IMG/VR virus record: IMGVR_UViG_3300037847_007661
Location: 1 to 20,153 of that record
Source of the DNA: a virus
Length of the DNA: 20,153 nucleotides
Strand: one strand, 5' to 3'
Shown here: in pieces, positions 7,528 through 17,836 of the stretch
How the letters are laid out: every line of letters starts with the position of its first letter
Numbering within the stretch: position 1 is the first letter of the stretch
The notes under the pieces: generated by a model
Told to the model about the DNA's origin: nothing
The model's input: the letters and a program-made list of their open reading frames with translations, nothing else
Databases searched by the model: none
Translations under genes and position numbers: made by a program

Positions 7528-7535
7528 TATTTATC
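7528..7535 (-). promoter_or_regulatory. T4-type late promoter box (GATAAATA)
   Basis: GATAAATA on the - strand matches seven of the eight bases of the T4 late -10 element TATAAATA. It lies in the 35-base gap that is the largest within this part of the operon, 29 bases upstream of the giant gene's ATG at 7498. It overlaps the stop codon of the preceding gene. The spacing resembles that of the gp4 and gp26 boxes in this window. In T4 such promoters need the phage sigma gp55, gp33 and the sliding clamp. Confidence 0.6.
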
Positions 7536-8757
7536 AGAAATCAAGAGCATCGTCAAGACCTGAACGATCACCTGCTCTTGCCCTTGCTAATTCTGTGTCA
7601 AGTTCATTCCCAATAATATCAGGAGTTGCCCTGGTTGGTTCAACAAATGGTTGTGTCTTTTTAGGAGGTACTGTTGGAGTGTCTTTACTAACTCGGTCAC
7701 CAAGAGATCTCTCACTAGGAAGTTCTGATCTTGCTTGTCCCGATCCTCCACTACAAAATGTATAATAATCAGTATTTGCTTGGTTTGGTTTTAATTCACA
7801 ACCAAATACACTTGGTGAAAAATTAGTAAAAGTAAGAGCAGAAGTAACACTTCCTTTAAAATCACCAATCAAATTTTTAACATCCTGTAGATTGCCTGTA
7901 ATCCCAGCCAATGTATCAGTAATATCTTCAAGATATGCATCAATATTATCAAGCAATGTCACATTTGCTTTGTCAATATCGTCAACATGTAGGGACATTA
8001 CTCTCGATGTGATATCTTCAGCCGTACAGATTGGTGCTTTAGGAAAAGTGGTTTCACCATTTACGTTTCCATCACTATCAACACTCGCTGCTGCTCTATC
8101 TCTTGCTTCTTTTTCAAGATCATCAAGTTTTAAAATATCATCAAGAACACCAGAGACTTGATCTGTGAGATTGCCTGTCATTTTACCATAAAGACATAAA
8201 ATGAGTTCCGTTGTAATATCTTTGAGATCAGAGAATTGATATCTTAAACTAGATGGAAGTGCTGCAACAACTTTATTCATTTGTTTATTAATTATCTTTA
8301 TGGCATACTCCATCACTTTATCAAACATGATCTTCATGTATTTTGCAATTTCACCTGATATACCTCTGATATAATTTCTTATATCTTGAATTTTGTTAGT
8401 GGCAGCATCAATATAACTTTGAATTGACTGAAGAAATTTGTCAATTTTCTTTGTCATATTTTCAATTGCGGTTTGTATTCCCTTAATTGATGACCTAACA
8501 ATTGAATCTGGATCTGGTGTCAGAAGAACAATTTTTTCATCACATTTTTCTTGTCGGATTACATCTGCAGCAGTAATCTGATGTACTCCTTCATTTTCAA
8601 TAGTTGCTCCAGGTTGTGGTTGTGCTCCTGGACCTGCCTCTGGTGCCTGTCTATTACGTGCTCTCTCAGCAGCTCTCTCAGCACGATCTCTCTCAATAGC
8701 TTGTAAACCTACTTCAGCAGCTGCGTCCTCTGCTGGATTACTAAAACTTGATGTCAT
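7534..8757 (-). CDS. Unknown helical virion-associated protein downstream of gp5
   Basis: This encodes a 407 aa protein that I do not recognise. Residues 14-40 form a charged helix rich in Ala, Arg and Glu (AIERDRAERAAERARNRQ), followed by a Gln/Pro/Gly linker (40-52). Residues about 85-215 and 250-310 are long amphipathic, probably coiled-coil helices with few prolines. Cysteines occur near 72, 188, 244, 320 and 335. The last 70 residues are Pro/Arg/Asp-rich and look disordered. No enzyme motif is visible. The start codon overlaps the gp5 stop (TAATG) and has the strongest Shine-Dalgarno in the window (AGGAGG), so high expression coupled to gp5 is likely. The position between gp5 and the fibre/spike genes suggests a baseplate or hub structural role, which is inference only. 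Confidence 0.75.
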   Translation of the reverse strand: MTSSFSNPAEDAAAEVGLQAIERDRAERAAERARNRQAPEAGPGAQPQPGATIENEGVHQITAADVIRQEKCDEKIVLLTPDPDSIVRSSIKGIQTAIENMTKKIDKFLQSIQSYIDAATNKIQDIRNYIRGISGEIAKYMKIMFDKVMEYAIKIINKQMNKVVAALPSSLRYQFSDLKDITTELILCLYGKMTGNLTDQVSGVLDDILKLDDLEKEARDRAAASVDSDGNVNGETTFPKAPICTAEDITSRVMSLHVDDIDKANVTLLDNIDAYLEDITDTLAGITGNLQDVKNLIGDFKGSVTSALTFTNFSPSVFGCELKPNQANTDYYTFCSGGSGQARSELPSERSLGDRVSKDTPTVPPKKTQPFVEPTRATPDIIGNELDTELARARAGDRSGLDDALDF

Positions 8758-9341
8758 TATGCTCCTCCTCTTCTTGTAGTGCTGCCCAAACGCCTACCAC
8801 CTTGACCTCTTCTGGCAGGTTGTTTAATTGTCCTACCTTCATCTGACGGAATTGATCTTCTAGACCCCTGTTTTGGTTTTGCACCATCTGCAAAAGCACT
8901 AACTCCAAGATTTCCAGGTGTAGAGTTTGTAACTCTGTTATCACCTGTCTTTTGATTTAATATAGTTTGAGAGTTATTACCAAGAACTCCCATAATGACA
9001 GGAACTTGTTGGTCTTGACCATCAAGGAAAAAACCAAACACCATGTTTCCTTGACGTAAATTTGGTGTTTGTCCACTACCACCTTGAAATCCACCAGCAG
9101 TCACGGGGTACATTATATTAGCCCAAGGTAATTGATCATCAGGAATTGTTTCCTGTCCCTGATCATGAAGACCAATAATTCTTACCTTGTATCTATATCC
9201 CCACCCCGGAATTGTATCTACATCATCATACTTTCCAGGATTGATATTATCTCTCCATACAGAATCGTCAACAATCTGACCGACCCACCAATTAAATGAT
9301 GCACCTAAAAATCCAGGATTGAATAGTGAACTACCTTCCAT
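8757..9341 (-). CDS. gp5: Baseplate hub protein gp5, OB-fold domain only
   Basis: This 194 aa protein resembles the N-terminal OB-fold domain of T4 gp5, which joins the gp27 hub trimer to the spike. Residues about 12-30 (NWWVGQIVDDSVWRDN) and 45-125 (YRYKVRIIGLHDQ, LPWANIMYPVT, RQGNMVFGFFLDGQDQQVPVIMGVLGN, quoted in pieces) show the strand pattern of this domain and of VgrG proteins. Residues 130-194 are a basic Gly/Arg/Pro-rich tail. T4 gp5 has 575 residues with lysozyme and beta-helix domains; both are missing here. A TTG three bases upstream (9344) could start the frame, but ATG 9341 is preferred because it overlaps the upstream stop (TGATG) and follows GAGG at a suitable distance. Its neighbours gp27 and the downstream beta-helix gene support the assignment. 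Confidence 0.85.
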   Translation of the reverse strand: MEGSSLFNPGFLGASFNWWVGQIVDDSVWRDNINPGKYDDVDTIPGWGYRYKVRIIGLHDQGQETIPDDQLPWANIMYPVTAGGFQGGSGQTPNLRQGNMVFGFFLDGQDQQVPVIMGVLGNNSQTILNQKTGDNRVTNSTPGNLGVSAFADGAKPKQGSRRSIPSDEGRTIKQPARRGQGGRRLGSTTRRGGA

Positions 9342-9559
9342 CAATCCTCGTAGATTCTACATTCATCAGCTTCTGGATTTTCGTCACAATACATTTCAAG
9401 GAATGAAGGATCATGATCTTCGTCTGGATGATTTGCTTGATACTGCTCAAGGTGATCAAGTTCATCTGCTACATGACGACGCATTTGAGGAGACAATGTT
9501 GCGTCCTCAAGCATATCCTTGTCGTCATTAATGTGTTGTTGAATGCTTCTATCCGTCAT
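9341..9559 (-). CDS. Small acidic protein encoded between gp27 and gp5
   Basis: This 72 aa, very acidic protein is rich in Asp, Glu and His (for example ELDHLEQYQANHPDEDHDP) and ends with a two-cysteine segment, CDENPEADECRIYED. From memory, CxxNPxxxECRxY-type endings occur in many small marine T4-like phage proteins, but I cannot assign a function. The N-terminal half is predicted helical. It overlaps gp27 by four bases (ATGA) and shares a base with the gp5 start (TGATG), so all three are likely translated in a coupled way. That position suggests a role in hub assembly, perhaps as a chaperone or small plug, which is inference. A weak GGAAGG Shine-Dalgarno precedes ATG 9559. Confidence 0.75.
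   Translation of the reverse strand: MTDRSIQQHINDDKDMLEDATLSPQMRRHVADELDHLEQYQANHPDEDHDPSFLEMYCDENPEADECRIYED
9345..9350 (-). promoter_or_regulatory. Ribosome binding site deciding the gp5 start
   Basis: CGAGGA on the - strand lies four to nine bases before ATG 9341 and only one to six before the alternative TTG 9344. The spacing favours the ATG. It is embedded in the last codons of the preceding gene. Confidence 0.55.
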
Positions 9560-14272: not shown

Positions 14273-16948
14273 TTAGAAGGGGAGAGGAATTCCTAAGATT
14301 TTGGACTTAGACGCAGACTTCGGAGGTGAAGGAATAGGTGGAACAAAAGATGCTGATGTTGTTTCCATTGCAGTCTGACTTACAGTAGCACCACCATCAA
14401 CCACAGTAACTTTTGCTTGTGGTCTAACTGGAGGACTTGGCAAACTTACAGATGGTGTAGTGGTTGCTAATTGAGCAGTTTTTGAAACCTCATCACCAAG
14501 GAACATACTATATCCCTCACCAGGTTTAATACCTCTTAATTCCATATCAATTCTTCTTGCATCAGCTTCTCTTCTTCTTGTAGATTCGTAAGCATCACTT
14601 TTAGATAGAATATCTACAAGTTGTTCTGATGAAACTCCTGGAATACTATCGGCACCTTTCATCACATCTTCAATCGTTGTTCCTCTTGGTAACTGACTTA
14701 AAATTTGATGTTGAAATTTTAGTAGGTCGGGTTTACCAATACCAACGAAATTTTTTTTATAAGATGTTTTATCATCATACAACATACCACCCCTTACTTT
14801 TTTTATCCTCTTCGTTATTGTATCATTAGTTTTATTTACAGTTATACCTTCACCCATCCTTCTAGTTGTGTCACCTAAAAATCTTCCACCCTGTCCCCTT
14901 CCAACACTTTTCATTAATTTTTCGGTTTTCACATTAGTGTATCCTGCAGTAAGTGTTTCAGGATTTATCTGTCCTATTCTATAACCAAACTTACCCTCAG
15001 TATTCACAGAATCATTAAATTTATTTTTATTATAATTTTCAACTATTTCAGGAGTTAATTGCGGACCAGCCATACCAAAAAGTTCTGGATTAATTTTTGA
15101 TGCCCGTTCTTTTTTGCCCATCAATGTCAATAAAGTCCTTGTTAAAGCATTGCCCAGAGGTTTACCTACTGCTTCAACACCTCGATCAAACACATTTCCC
15201 AGTGCCAAATTTACAATCATCTGTAATGGTGATCCTCCTCTTAAGTTTTTCAATCCACCAATATTAAATTTAGGCAATCTTCCAGCACCAGATGCCATTT
15301 GTCCTCTGAGCCTATTTGCCAAAGCACTATTAGGTCTGTATCCAGATTGCAATTTATCAGCAAGTGATTTTCCCTTGTCAAAAACTTCGGGTGCAACCTT
15401 CATCTGTGGTTCAAGGAAAGGAATTCTTGCTGCCCCTCCAGGAACAATCGTTCTGATAACTCCACCTGGAACTTGAGGTCCACCAAGTGAACCCTGAGAC
15501 CCAGCATATCTCATTGCTCCTTGTGAAGTAGGAGCACTATATGCACCACGTCCTAAGATTTGTGGTTTACTAGATTGAATATACTTGGCACCACCACTTA
15601 TAGCATCAAAACCTGGTTTACCCATTCCGGTAAATCCAGCAGTTGCTCTTGTTCCTCTTGCAAGTCCTTGCTGTTGAAATATATTTGTAACAGGTGATGA
15701 TGCTTGTGGAATGATAGGTCTTAAACCTCTTGCAGGTGGTTTTTCCTTTTCCTCTCCAAGGTAACCACCACCCTGTGCATAAAGTTTATTCTGAATTACT
15801 TTAGGTTTGTTTGTGCCCCCACCAGAGGCATTCATCTCTTTCAATGTATCGACACCATACTTTTGTACGGCACCTTTACTCATAACAAATTCACCTGCTG
15901 TAAGCATAGCAGGCACTTTGTCAATACCAGTGGGACCCTCTACTTTTCCACCTTGATTAAATGCTTGTGCCTCAGGAGATTGTCCTTCTTTAGTATCATC
16001 AGGTTGACTATCACCCTCTAATAGCTTAGATATGCCACCAATAGCTGCTGCAGTTCCTGCAACCTCTAAAACAGTTGCGAGTGCTCTACCTCTTCCTCCT
16101 AATAATCCTCTTGCAAGACCACCTGCCTTTCGCAGACCCATCTTCTTAAGGAGTAATAGTGCAGCAGCTCCTAATCTAATTGCACCTTTAATCAAAAGAC
16201 CAGTAAGTTTTCTTATTGCTCTTCCTACACCCGTTCCAAATACAAGATAAGTTGCTAATAACTTAGGACCAAAATCAGTAAGGAATCTTATAATTGAATT
16301 TACTTTACTTTGATTCTTAGGATCACCTAACCACTCAACTAATTTAAATACAATCCTACCCAGAATTATCTTTGTAAAGAAACCAATAATTCTATCAAGA
16401 ATAGACTTGACTGGTTTGATTATCTTTTCAGATGCCTTTCTTAGTCCTTCAAATCTTTTCTCTAATTTTTCTTCTTGAAGTTTTCTCTTCTCATTCTCTT
16501 GCTTCTTCTTATCTGCTGCTGCTTTTTTCTTTTCAAGTTCTTGATCCTTCTTCAAGGTTTCAAGAATTGAATCTATACCTCTTAAAACTTCTTCAAGATT
16601 CTCTTGAGTCCCCTCACCTTTGAAATTATTAACATCAATATTAGTTTTTCTAATTACTAATCCACCATTAGCACCAATAGACGGTGTACGTTTGGTTTGA
16701 ACTTCAATTCTTTTCTTTTTTTCTAATACTCTATCTACAAAATTTTGAAAATTTATCTTGCCTTTTCTATATGCCTTGACACCTTCCTTTCTCTCGTCAG
16801 GGGTAAGATTGTCACCTTTAATTCTTCCTTCACTTAAAAGTTCTTTGTAATATTTGTCATACTTATCCTCACCAAAAAATTTCGCAGGGACGATCTTGCC
16901 TCCTGTACCTTCTTCTCTTATAGATTTCAGGAGGTCATCAAGATCCAT
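14273..16948 (-). CDS. Tape-measure-like protein without hydrolase domain
   Basis: This 891 aa protein has a charged N-terminal region and a long coiled coil (about 115-178, Lys/Glu/Gln-rich). Hydrophobic segments follow at 185-206 (IIGFFTKIILGRIVFKLVEW) and 225-310, and then the tape-measure motif GGKVEGPTGIDKVPAMLTAGEFVM at 333-356 (quoted for its key Gly, Pro and Glu). The rest (375-891) is Gly/Pro/Arg-rich with low complexity and no enzyme motif. The segment ILGRIVFKLVEWL matches ILLGFFAVRLVDQL of the next gene, so the two proteins look paralogous. In T4 the tape-measure/hub protein gp29 (about 590 aa) occupies a similar place, but I cannot show direct homology. The start overlaps the small ORF upstream by 11 bases. 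A tape-measure role is inferred from composition, motif and position. Confidence 0.78.
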   Translation of the reverse strand: MDLDDLLKSIREEGTGGKIVPAKFFGEDKYDKYYKELLSEGRIKGDNLTPDERKEGVKAYRKGKINFQNFVDRVLEKKKRIEVQTKRTPSIGANGGLVIRKTNIDVNNFKGEGTQENLEEVLRGIDSILETLKKDQELEKKKAAADKKKQENEKRKLQEEKLEKRFEGLRKASEKIIKPVKSILDRIIGFFTKIILGRIVFKLVEWLGDPKNQSKVNSIIRFLTDFGPKLLATYLVFGTGVGRAIRKLTGLLIKGAIRLGAAALLLLKKMGLRKAGGLARGLLGGRGRALATVLEVAGTAAAIGGISKLLEGDSQPDDTKEGQSPEAQAFNQGGKVEGPTGIDKVPAMLTAGEFVMSKGAVQKYGVDTLKEMNASGGGTNKPKVIQNKLYAQGGGYLGEEKEKPPARGLRPIIPQASSPVTNIFQQQGLARGTRATAGFTGMGKPGFDAISGGAKYIQSSKPQILGRGAYSAPTSQGAMRYAGSQGSLGGPQVPGGVIRTIVPGGAARIPFLEPQMKVAPEVFDKGKSLADKLQSGYRPNSALANRLRGQMASGAGRLPKFNIGGLKNLRGGSPLQMIVNLALGNVFDRGVEAVGKPLGNALTRTLLTLMGKKERASKINPELFGMAGPQLTPEIVENYNKNKFNDSVNTEGKFGYRIGQINPETLTAGYTNVKTEKLMKSVGRGQGGRFLGDTTRRMGEGITVNKTNDTITKRIKKVRGGMLYDDKTSYKKNFVGIGKPDLLKFQHQILSQLPRGTTIEDVMKGADSIPGVSSEQLVDILSKSDAYESTRRREADARRIDMELRGIKPGEGYSMFLGDEVSKTAQLATTTPSVSLPSPPVRPQAKVTVVDGGATVSQTAMETTSASFVPPIPSPPKSASKSKILGIPLPF

Positions 16949-17105
16949 TTGCTTGCTGTTTTAACTTTTCTTCTTCAAGGTGTTGTTGAAGAAGAGCAAC
17001 ATAAACGTCCCTCTCCCACGGCATCATATTTTCTATTTCTGTCAATGAATATTTATGATACTGCATCAAAGCAAAATTTAGTTTATAATAGCTCATCAAG
17101 TTCAT
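16938..17105 (-). CDS. Small ORF after gp26, likely frameshift extension (T-like chaperone domain)
   Basis: This encodes 55 aa from ATG 17105, or 52 aa from the in-frame ATG 17096: (MNL)MSYYKLNFALMQYHKYS, then LTEIENMMPWERDVYVALLQ, then a charged tail ending KQQANGS. It is rich in aromatic residues and helical, with a MPWERDVYV segment. The frame overlaps the start of the 891 aa tape-measure-like gene by 11 bases. Neither ATG has a clear Shine-Dalgarno, and both lie inside a strong RNA stem-loop. The frame is open backwards to the slippery site in gp26 in the -1 frame, so the product may be made mainly as a gp26 fusion of about 299 aa. By position it matches lambda T or P2 E'. Independent translation by coupling to gp26 is the alternative. 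Confidence 0.75.
   Translation of the reverse strand: MNLMSYYKLNFALMQYHKYSLTEIENMMPWERDVYVALLQQHLEEEKLKQQANGS
17050..17057 (-). promoter_or_regulatory. Possible internal late promoter box (CATAAATA)
   Basis: CATAAATA on the - strand matches the T4 late element TATAAATA at seven of eight bases. It lies inside the small ORF, about 100 bases before the start of the 891 aa gene. The distance is longer than for the other boxes here, and the codons TAT CAT AAA TAT explain the sequence equally well, so this is only a candidate. Confidence 0.25.
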
Positions 17106-17129
17106 ATGAACTAGAGCTATGCGAAAAAA
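17088..17129 (-). promoter_or_regulatory. Programmed -1 ribosomal frameshift signal at the gp26 3' end
   Basis: On the - strand T TTT TTC occupies 17129-17123 in the gp26 frame (codons TCT TTT TTC). This is a canonical X XXY YYZ -1 slippery heptamer. The gp26 stop (TAG, 17119-17117) follows one codon later. Two bases after the heptamer a stem-loop begins. The outer stem ATAGCTC (17120-17114) pairs with GAGCTAT (17094-17088). The inner stem AGTTC/GAACT closes an ATAT loop within a perfect 14-base palindrome (17112-17099). After a -1 slip the reading continues CGC ATA GCT CTA GTT CAT into ATG 17105 without a stop. The two-base spacer is shorter than usual (5-9), so partial melting of the outer stem would be needed. 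Confidence 0.68.
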
Positions 17130-17836
17130 GATGCCAATCCCTCAAGTACAACCTCACTTTCAACTTTGGTATTAGGATTCTTGACCTTTACCGTATGTGA
17201 CAGTTTAGGCATCGTTTCAAAGAACTTTTCAATCTCTTTAAATTGAGATGAATTCATTTGTTCAAGGAAATCATTCATTTCCTTCTTAGTAAAATCACCG
17301 GTTGCCCAGACTTCATCTTCAGTAAAGATTTTATCAATACAAGTTGCAATCAATTCAAAAGATTGATCCATTGAACTCTTGTCTTCAAAATCAAAGTTGT
17401 TCTTAATAAATTGTTCAAGAGATGGATATCTCATCTCCATCATAATGTTATCATCAATTTTAATTTGTTTCTTGTGATCATCGTCCTTCTGAACTTTGAT
17501 TGATTCAAGATCAATATTGACAGAGACTGTTGTTTGTTCATCATCTGGACAGATGATATTTACCTCAATCTCTTCTCCTACGGACTTACCACGAATATTC
17601 AAAAACAAATATTCAATATCAAAAGTAGGCAATTGCTCTACTTTTATTCCTCTAGTAAGAACACAATTCTTGATTACAGTTTTGATTGCAGTTGTAATCT
17701 GTTTTGTATCCTCACTCTCCAGTGCAAGAACAAGAAGTTTCTCTTCTTTAACAAGAAAGGGTCTAAATTTAATTGTCTCTTCAGTAGATGGAAGCTCCAA
17801 CTCATAGGTTGGAGTTGCAATCTTTGGTAAAGGCAT
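17117..17836 (-). CDS. gp26: Baseplate hub assembly protein gp26 (putative tail assembly chaperone)
   Basis: This 239 aa protein resembles the T4 gp26 baseplate hub assembly family (T4 gp26 is 208 aa). Typical features are the start P-x-Y-x-L-x-L-P-S followed by IKFRPFLVKEEKLLVLALES (24-41 region), the segment LPTFDIEYLFLNIRGKSVGE, and a C-terminal GLASFF. A position that may once have been a metal-binding CPxC is only ICPDD here. In T4 gp26 is needed for hub formation but is not clearly part of the finished virion. The protein lies directly after a tube-fold protein and before two tape-measure-like genes, the place of lambda G. Its last codons hold a -1 slippery heptamer. A late-promoter box lies upstream at 17871-17864. 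ATG 17836 follows a weak AGGT. Confidence 0.82.
   Translation of the reverse strand: MPLPKIATPTYELELPSTEETIKFRPFLVKEEKLLVLALESEDTKQITTAIKTVIKNCVLTRGIKVEQLPTFDIEYLFLNIRGKSVGEEIEVNIICPDDEQTTVSVNIDLESIKVQKDDDHKKQIKIDDNIMMEMRYPSLEQFIKNNFDFEDKSSMDQSFELIATCIDKIFTEDEVWATGDFTKKEMNDFLEQMNSSQFKEIEKFFETMPKLSHTVKVKNPNTKVESEVVLEGLASFFA

Follow-up and report, generated by a model that had tools for sequence, protein, structure and literature searches.

Gene 26 and the small '51' frame that follows it very probably form a single gene expressed by programmed -1 frameshifting in T4-like phages

In the genome of a marine T4-like phage, gene 26 is followed by a small open reading frame that could be read in two ways: as a gene of its own, or as the tail of gene 26, reached by ribosomes that change frame shortly before the gene 26 stop codon. 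This question was addressed in the window, i.e., the whole 20,153-nucleotide stretch of viral DNA that was analysed, and in its close and distant relatives. Judged from sequence comparison, gene 26 and the small '51' frame very probably constitute one gene, whose products would be a chaperone pair made by programmed -1 frameshifting and, in T-even phages, from paralogues. The features of the locus were as follows:

17117..17836, minus strand: gene 26, short form (TAC-N, 239 aa); PF12322 E=1.8e-76, phrog_150 E=3.4e-82
17123..17129, minus strand: slippery heptamer T TTT TTC
16938..17123, minus strand: -1 frame extension of 61 codons plus stop, the C-terminal domain; 'gp51' in cyanophage annotation, aligning colinearly with the C-terminal end of T4 gp51
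16938..17105, minus strand: the 55-aa ORF that annotation would yield; phrog_634 E=1.4e-26, phrog_150 positions 241-281
17099..17112, minus strand: inner hairpin of 5 bp with an AUAU loop and a 10-nt spacer to the heptamer; conserved, with covarying pairs
17088..17120, minus strand: outer stem of 7 bp, as drawn in the preliminary description
14273..16948, minus strand: downstream gene of 891 aa, candidate tape measure; weak, local matches to tape-measure PHROGs

The preliminary description had claimed an in-frame T TTT TTC near the gp26 stop, a -1 frame open from there into the small ORF, and a fusion of about 299 aa (238 plus about 61), and all three were recovered. The 3' end of gene 26 reads GCA TCT TTT TTC GCA TAG on the minus strand, which places the heptamer at 17129-17123 in frame as xxT TTT TTC, with a single codon (GCA) between it and the gp26 stop TAG. 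Read from T TTT TTC, the -1 frame was FFRIALVHMNLMSYYKLNFALMQYHKYSLTEIENMMPWERD... (translated onward as FFRIALVHMNL...) and met no stop before the far end of the 55-aa ORF, where a stop codon ends at 16938. The predicted fusion was computed at 238 + 61 = 299 aa. The PF12322 domain was found in the short form, and the long form bears the gp51 C-terminal domain (phrog_634). The 55-aa ORF also matched the C-terminal positions of phrog_150, the gp26 family, so some members of that family are fused; the ORF is probably only part of the -1 extension and not an independent gene.

Within gp26 the heptamer was the sole in-frame X XXY YYZ site. Altogether, 44 such in-frame sites occurred in the 13 main genes of the window, and the -1 frame passed the gene stop at two of them, the gp26 site included. 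Bare TTTTTTC was not enriched in this AT-rich window (16 observed, 12.5 expected). Since the bare heptamer is common there, the evidence lies in its position and conservation, not in its presence.

Conservation was measured in a close-relative set of 80 viral-contig loci with 71-82% identity. Alignment of the gp26 3' ends gave no refutation of the proposed frameshift: 80/80 loci kept the heptamer in the same frame, with the -1 frame open. Among 126 degenerate codon columns (conserved in at least 90%), the two slip-site Phe codons were the only ones without a synonymous change. The first was invariably TTT, the second invariably TTC, and the codon before the pair was AGT, TCT or GGT, thus ending in T in every case. 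Amino-acid constraint (Ser-Phe-Phe) combined with codon usage might alone keep such a heptamer, without any slippage, and the lack of TTTTTTC enrichment in the window, together with two other Phe columns almost fixed as TTT, would fit this explanation. However, the second Phe codon is invariably TTC in genes that favour TTT (753 TTT vs. 328 TTC), six further Phe columns, likewise conserved, are free to vary, and the same site recurs in several phage families with differing neighbouring residues. Constraint without slippage is therefore considered extremely unlikely, and conservation of the site for frameshifting is preferred.

Downstream of the slip site, stops in the -1 frame were found in 0/79 sequences over 66 columns, and over the same columns the remaining two frames carried stops in 77 and 67 of these sequences. 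From the gp26 stop to the ATG of the small ORF, the DNA evolved as coding sequence in the -1 frame, the third position being the most variable (1.24 bits vs. 0.95 and 0.46). Because the close relatives share descent, their counts are not independent events; recurrence of the layout in distant phages is the stronger point.

The same layout was shared by 11 distant phages, their slip site being T TTT TTC, T TTT TTT or T TTT TTG: SynMITS9220M01, P-SSM2, S-CAM4, ME01, HTVC008M, pf16, Astolliot, Ps15, phiM9, S13, and R10Z. These included cyanophages and phages of Pelagibacter, Pseudomonas, Stenotrophomonas (Ps15), Sinorhizobium (phiM9), Cronobacter (S13), and Vibrio (R10Z). A further 29 contigs, several of them near-identical, were compared, and 28 had the layout as well. 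Judged from these genomes, most T4-like phages have kept the slip site. The sole exception among the 29 contigs was L107, in which the gp26 frame was broken. This contig is 99% identical to HTVC008M, its gp26 frame (1501-2199) breaks at residue 162, and the break is probably an assembly error.

As an independent gene 51, the small ORF would have its own start, the ATG at 17105, used through translational coupling or reinitiation. That ATG was present in 74/79 close relatives, stop-start overlaps occurred in phiM9, Ps15 and R10Z, and annotators list a separate gp51. However, no ATG, GTG or TTG was found at the expected tail start in L041, HTVC008M, S-CAM4 and S13; the tail in these is thus not an independent gene, and independent initiation cannot yield the full tail there. 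In the S-CAM4 and S13 genomes the tail gene is unannotated. In addition, SD-like motifs occurred in just 8/80 loci, coding constraint begins already upstream of the ATG, the heptamer is without any synonymous change, and T4 gp51 is the fused form (described below). An independent gene 51 is judged very unlikely on this evidence, and a -1 extension of gp26 is retained as the reading of the small ORF.

For the RNA downstream of the heptamer, the preliminary description had claimed a two-part stem-loop. Structure prediction folded the window RNA as drawn, with an outer stem of 7 bp and an inner one of 5 bp (-11.5 kcal/mol, z = -3.1), but conservation upheld the inner part only. Across 78 aligned sequences 86% of inner-stem cells were paired, two-sided changes occurred in 5/5 pairs, and RNAalifold retained the inner stem only; three or fewer of the five inner pairs formed in 20/80 sequences. 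In pairing and covariation the whole structure, and likewise the inner hairpin, scored above 500/500 shuffles and above each slid register. Of the outer pairs, those joining 14-16 to 36-38 were unpaired in 48-52 of the 78 sequences. With its pairs mostly broken, the outer 7-bp stem was ruled out as a conserved signal and is largely private to the window. No Rfam family was found at the slip site, where the search gave one sub-threshold CRISPR repeat match.

T4 differs in having two divergent genes and no frameshift. Its genes 26 and 51 are separate, divergently oriented and both PF12322, and no frameshift was found where T4 gene 26 ends. Both proteins are listed as hub assembly chaperones, gp51 being essential and absent from the particle (PMC3004832). 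Over the 282 positions of phrog_150, T4 gp51 covered 13-280 and T4 gp26 only 14-235. Fusions of 15 phages or contigs aligned straight through the junction to the long forms of T4, Aeromonas 31, RB43 and KP5. Among 107 reading frames, an HMM of the tail only picked T4 gp51 (E=5e-6) and the RB43 and KP5 long forms. T4 gp51 is therefore a homologue of the whole fusion, colinear with it and junction included, and T4 gp26 a homologue of the short form only; by alignment, T4 gp51 is the constitutive version of the predicted fusion. PF12322 occurred as one copy in 12/12 tested phages with the gp26-plus-tail layout (11 with the heptamer) and as two copies in T4 and RB43. These copy numbers, together with the alignment through the junction, indicate that the same two proteins can be made either by the frameshift or from the gene pair. 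The site and its conservation, the fused form in T4 and the copy numbers are direct observations.

Speaking against the frameshift reading, three Vibrio phages carried the tail in the -1 frame without the T6 heptamer, and gp26 ended in CTT TTY nnn TAATG:

L101, position 4079: heptamer-less locus of K361
L135, position 4070: heptamer-less locus of 1.244.A
L136, position 4073: heptamer-less locus of K474

PF12322 was single-copy in K361, the one of the three that was checked. Reinitiation at TAATG would be a plausible replacement for the frameshift in these phages. A wider reading, offered only tentatively, is that one ancestral short/long chaperone system has come to be expressed in three modes among T4-like phages. 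These would be: -1 frameshifting in most groups; duplication into short and fused-long paralogues in the T-evens and the RB43/KP5 group; and heptamer loss with TAATG in K361, 1.244.A and K474, in which the C-terminal domain would be a separate polypeptide.

A TAATG junction was also seen in gene 5 (baseplate hub/tail lysozyme; 7534-9344, minus strand). In the window this gene was divided between two ORFs, one with the OB domain (8757-9344) and another after it (7534-8757), and a strong SD immediately preceded the junction. A new ORF begins at the split point also in L141, L142, L144, L145 and L147; gene 5 was one long ORF in L143, L146, L148 and L149. A T TTG GGC was in frame at 8784-8790 (minus strand), roughly 10 codons short of where the N-terminal gp5 ORF stops, and from it the -1 frame was open into the second gp5 ORF.

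Lambda (G/GT) and P2 (E/E') each make a short protein and a -1 frameshifted extension of it just upstream of the tape measure gene. Here the short form and its predicted -1 extension are followed by the 891-aa gene, a candidate tape measure, and in HTVC008M a putative tail tape measure is annotated one small ORF downstream of the pair. The slip site is T TTT TTC here and G GGA AAG in lambda, lambda's T part is longer than the present extension, and no sequence homology was shown between the lambda or P2 proteins and gp26 or its extension. The colinearity of T4 gp51 with the fusion, and one PF12322 copy against two, point to a short/long pair that would work like lambda G/GT. The preliminary description had suggested such a G/GT-like chaperone pair; the suggestion gains support, strengthened by T4 gp51 as an apparent constitutive fusion.

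Structure models were compared as well. The gp26 model (pLDDT 83) matched T4-like hub proteins in BFVD. Against the PDB, the HK97 tail assembly chaperone 2ob9_B ranked ninth and was not significant (E=2, prob 0.51, TMt 0.43), the gp51 model had no PDB match, and gp26 had no significant sequence relatives in the PDB. The fold likeness to known tail chaperones is suggestive only, and the missing significant match weighs against the chaperone reading.

In the mechanism that we infer, the ribosome in all probability shifts back by a single base shortly before it reaches the gene 26 stop. Most ribosomes would stop after 239 aa and yield the short form, and a minority, at a rate likewise inferred, would slip on T TTT TTC and yield the 299-aa long form with the 61-residue extension. 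The hairpin about 10 nt downstream may help slippage. Both forms would be tail assembly chaperones, the short one a TAC-N and the long one a TAC-NC, comparable to lambda gpG and gpGT, and their presumed client is the tape-measure protein from the gene that follows. In T-even phages the same two proteins would come from the paralogous genes 26 (short) and 51 (long).

The 2022 abstract of Vladimirov and colleagues reportedly describes a frameshift kept in several groups of T4-like phages, and genes 26 and 51 as the ones used in T4. The preliminary description knew of no such frameshift as an established feature of the T4-like baseplate hub genes. For T4-like phages the idea is nevertheless an earlier one: PMC10885494 and PMC12846349 both cite Vladimirov, Gautam & Davidson (Virology 2022, 566:9-15), who identified the tail assembly chaperone genes of these phages. 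Citing that study, the PRFect paper notes that some T4-like phages carry a short and a longer fused chaperone gene instead of frameshifting (PMC10885494), and the phage Adele paper notes poly-T slippery sequences in T4-like TAC-N genes (PMC12846349). As far as these citing papers convey it, the genes are the same 26/51 pair as TAC-N/TAC-NC, with no essential difference, so the finding is real, well supported and already known. The hairpin covariation and the start-codon-less relatives may or may not already be part of the 2022 study.

The frameshift explains the size gap between cyanophage 'gp51' (about 55 aa) and T4 gp51 (249 aa), since the cyanophage entry would be the tail only of the frameshifted protein. 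Many genome records would consequently hold a wrong gene at this position or, as in S-CAM4 and S13, none.
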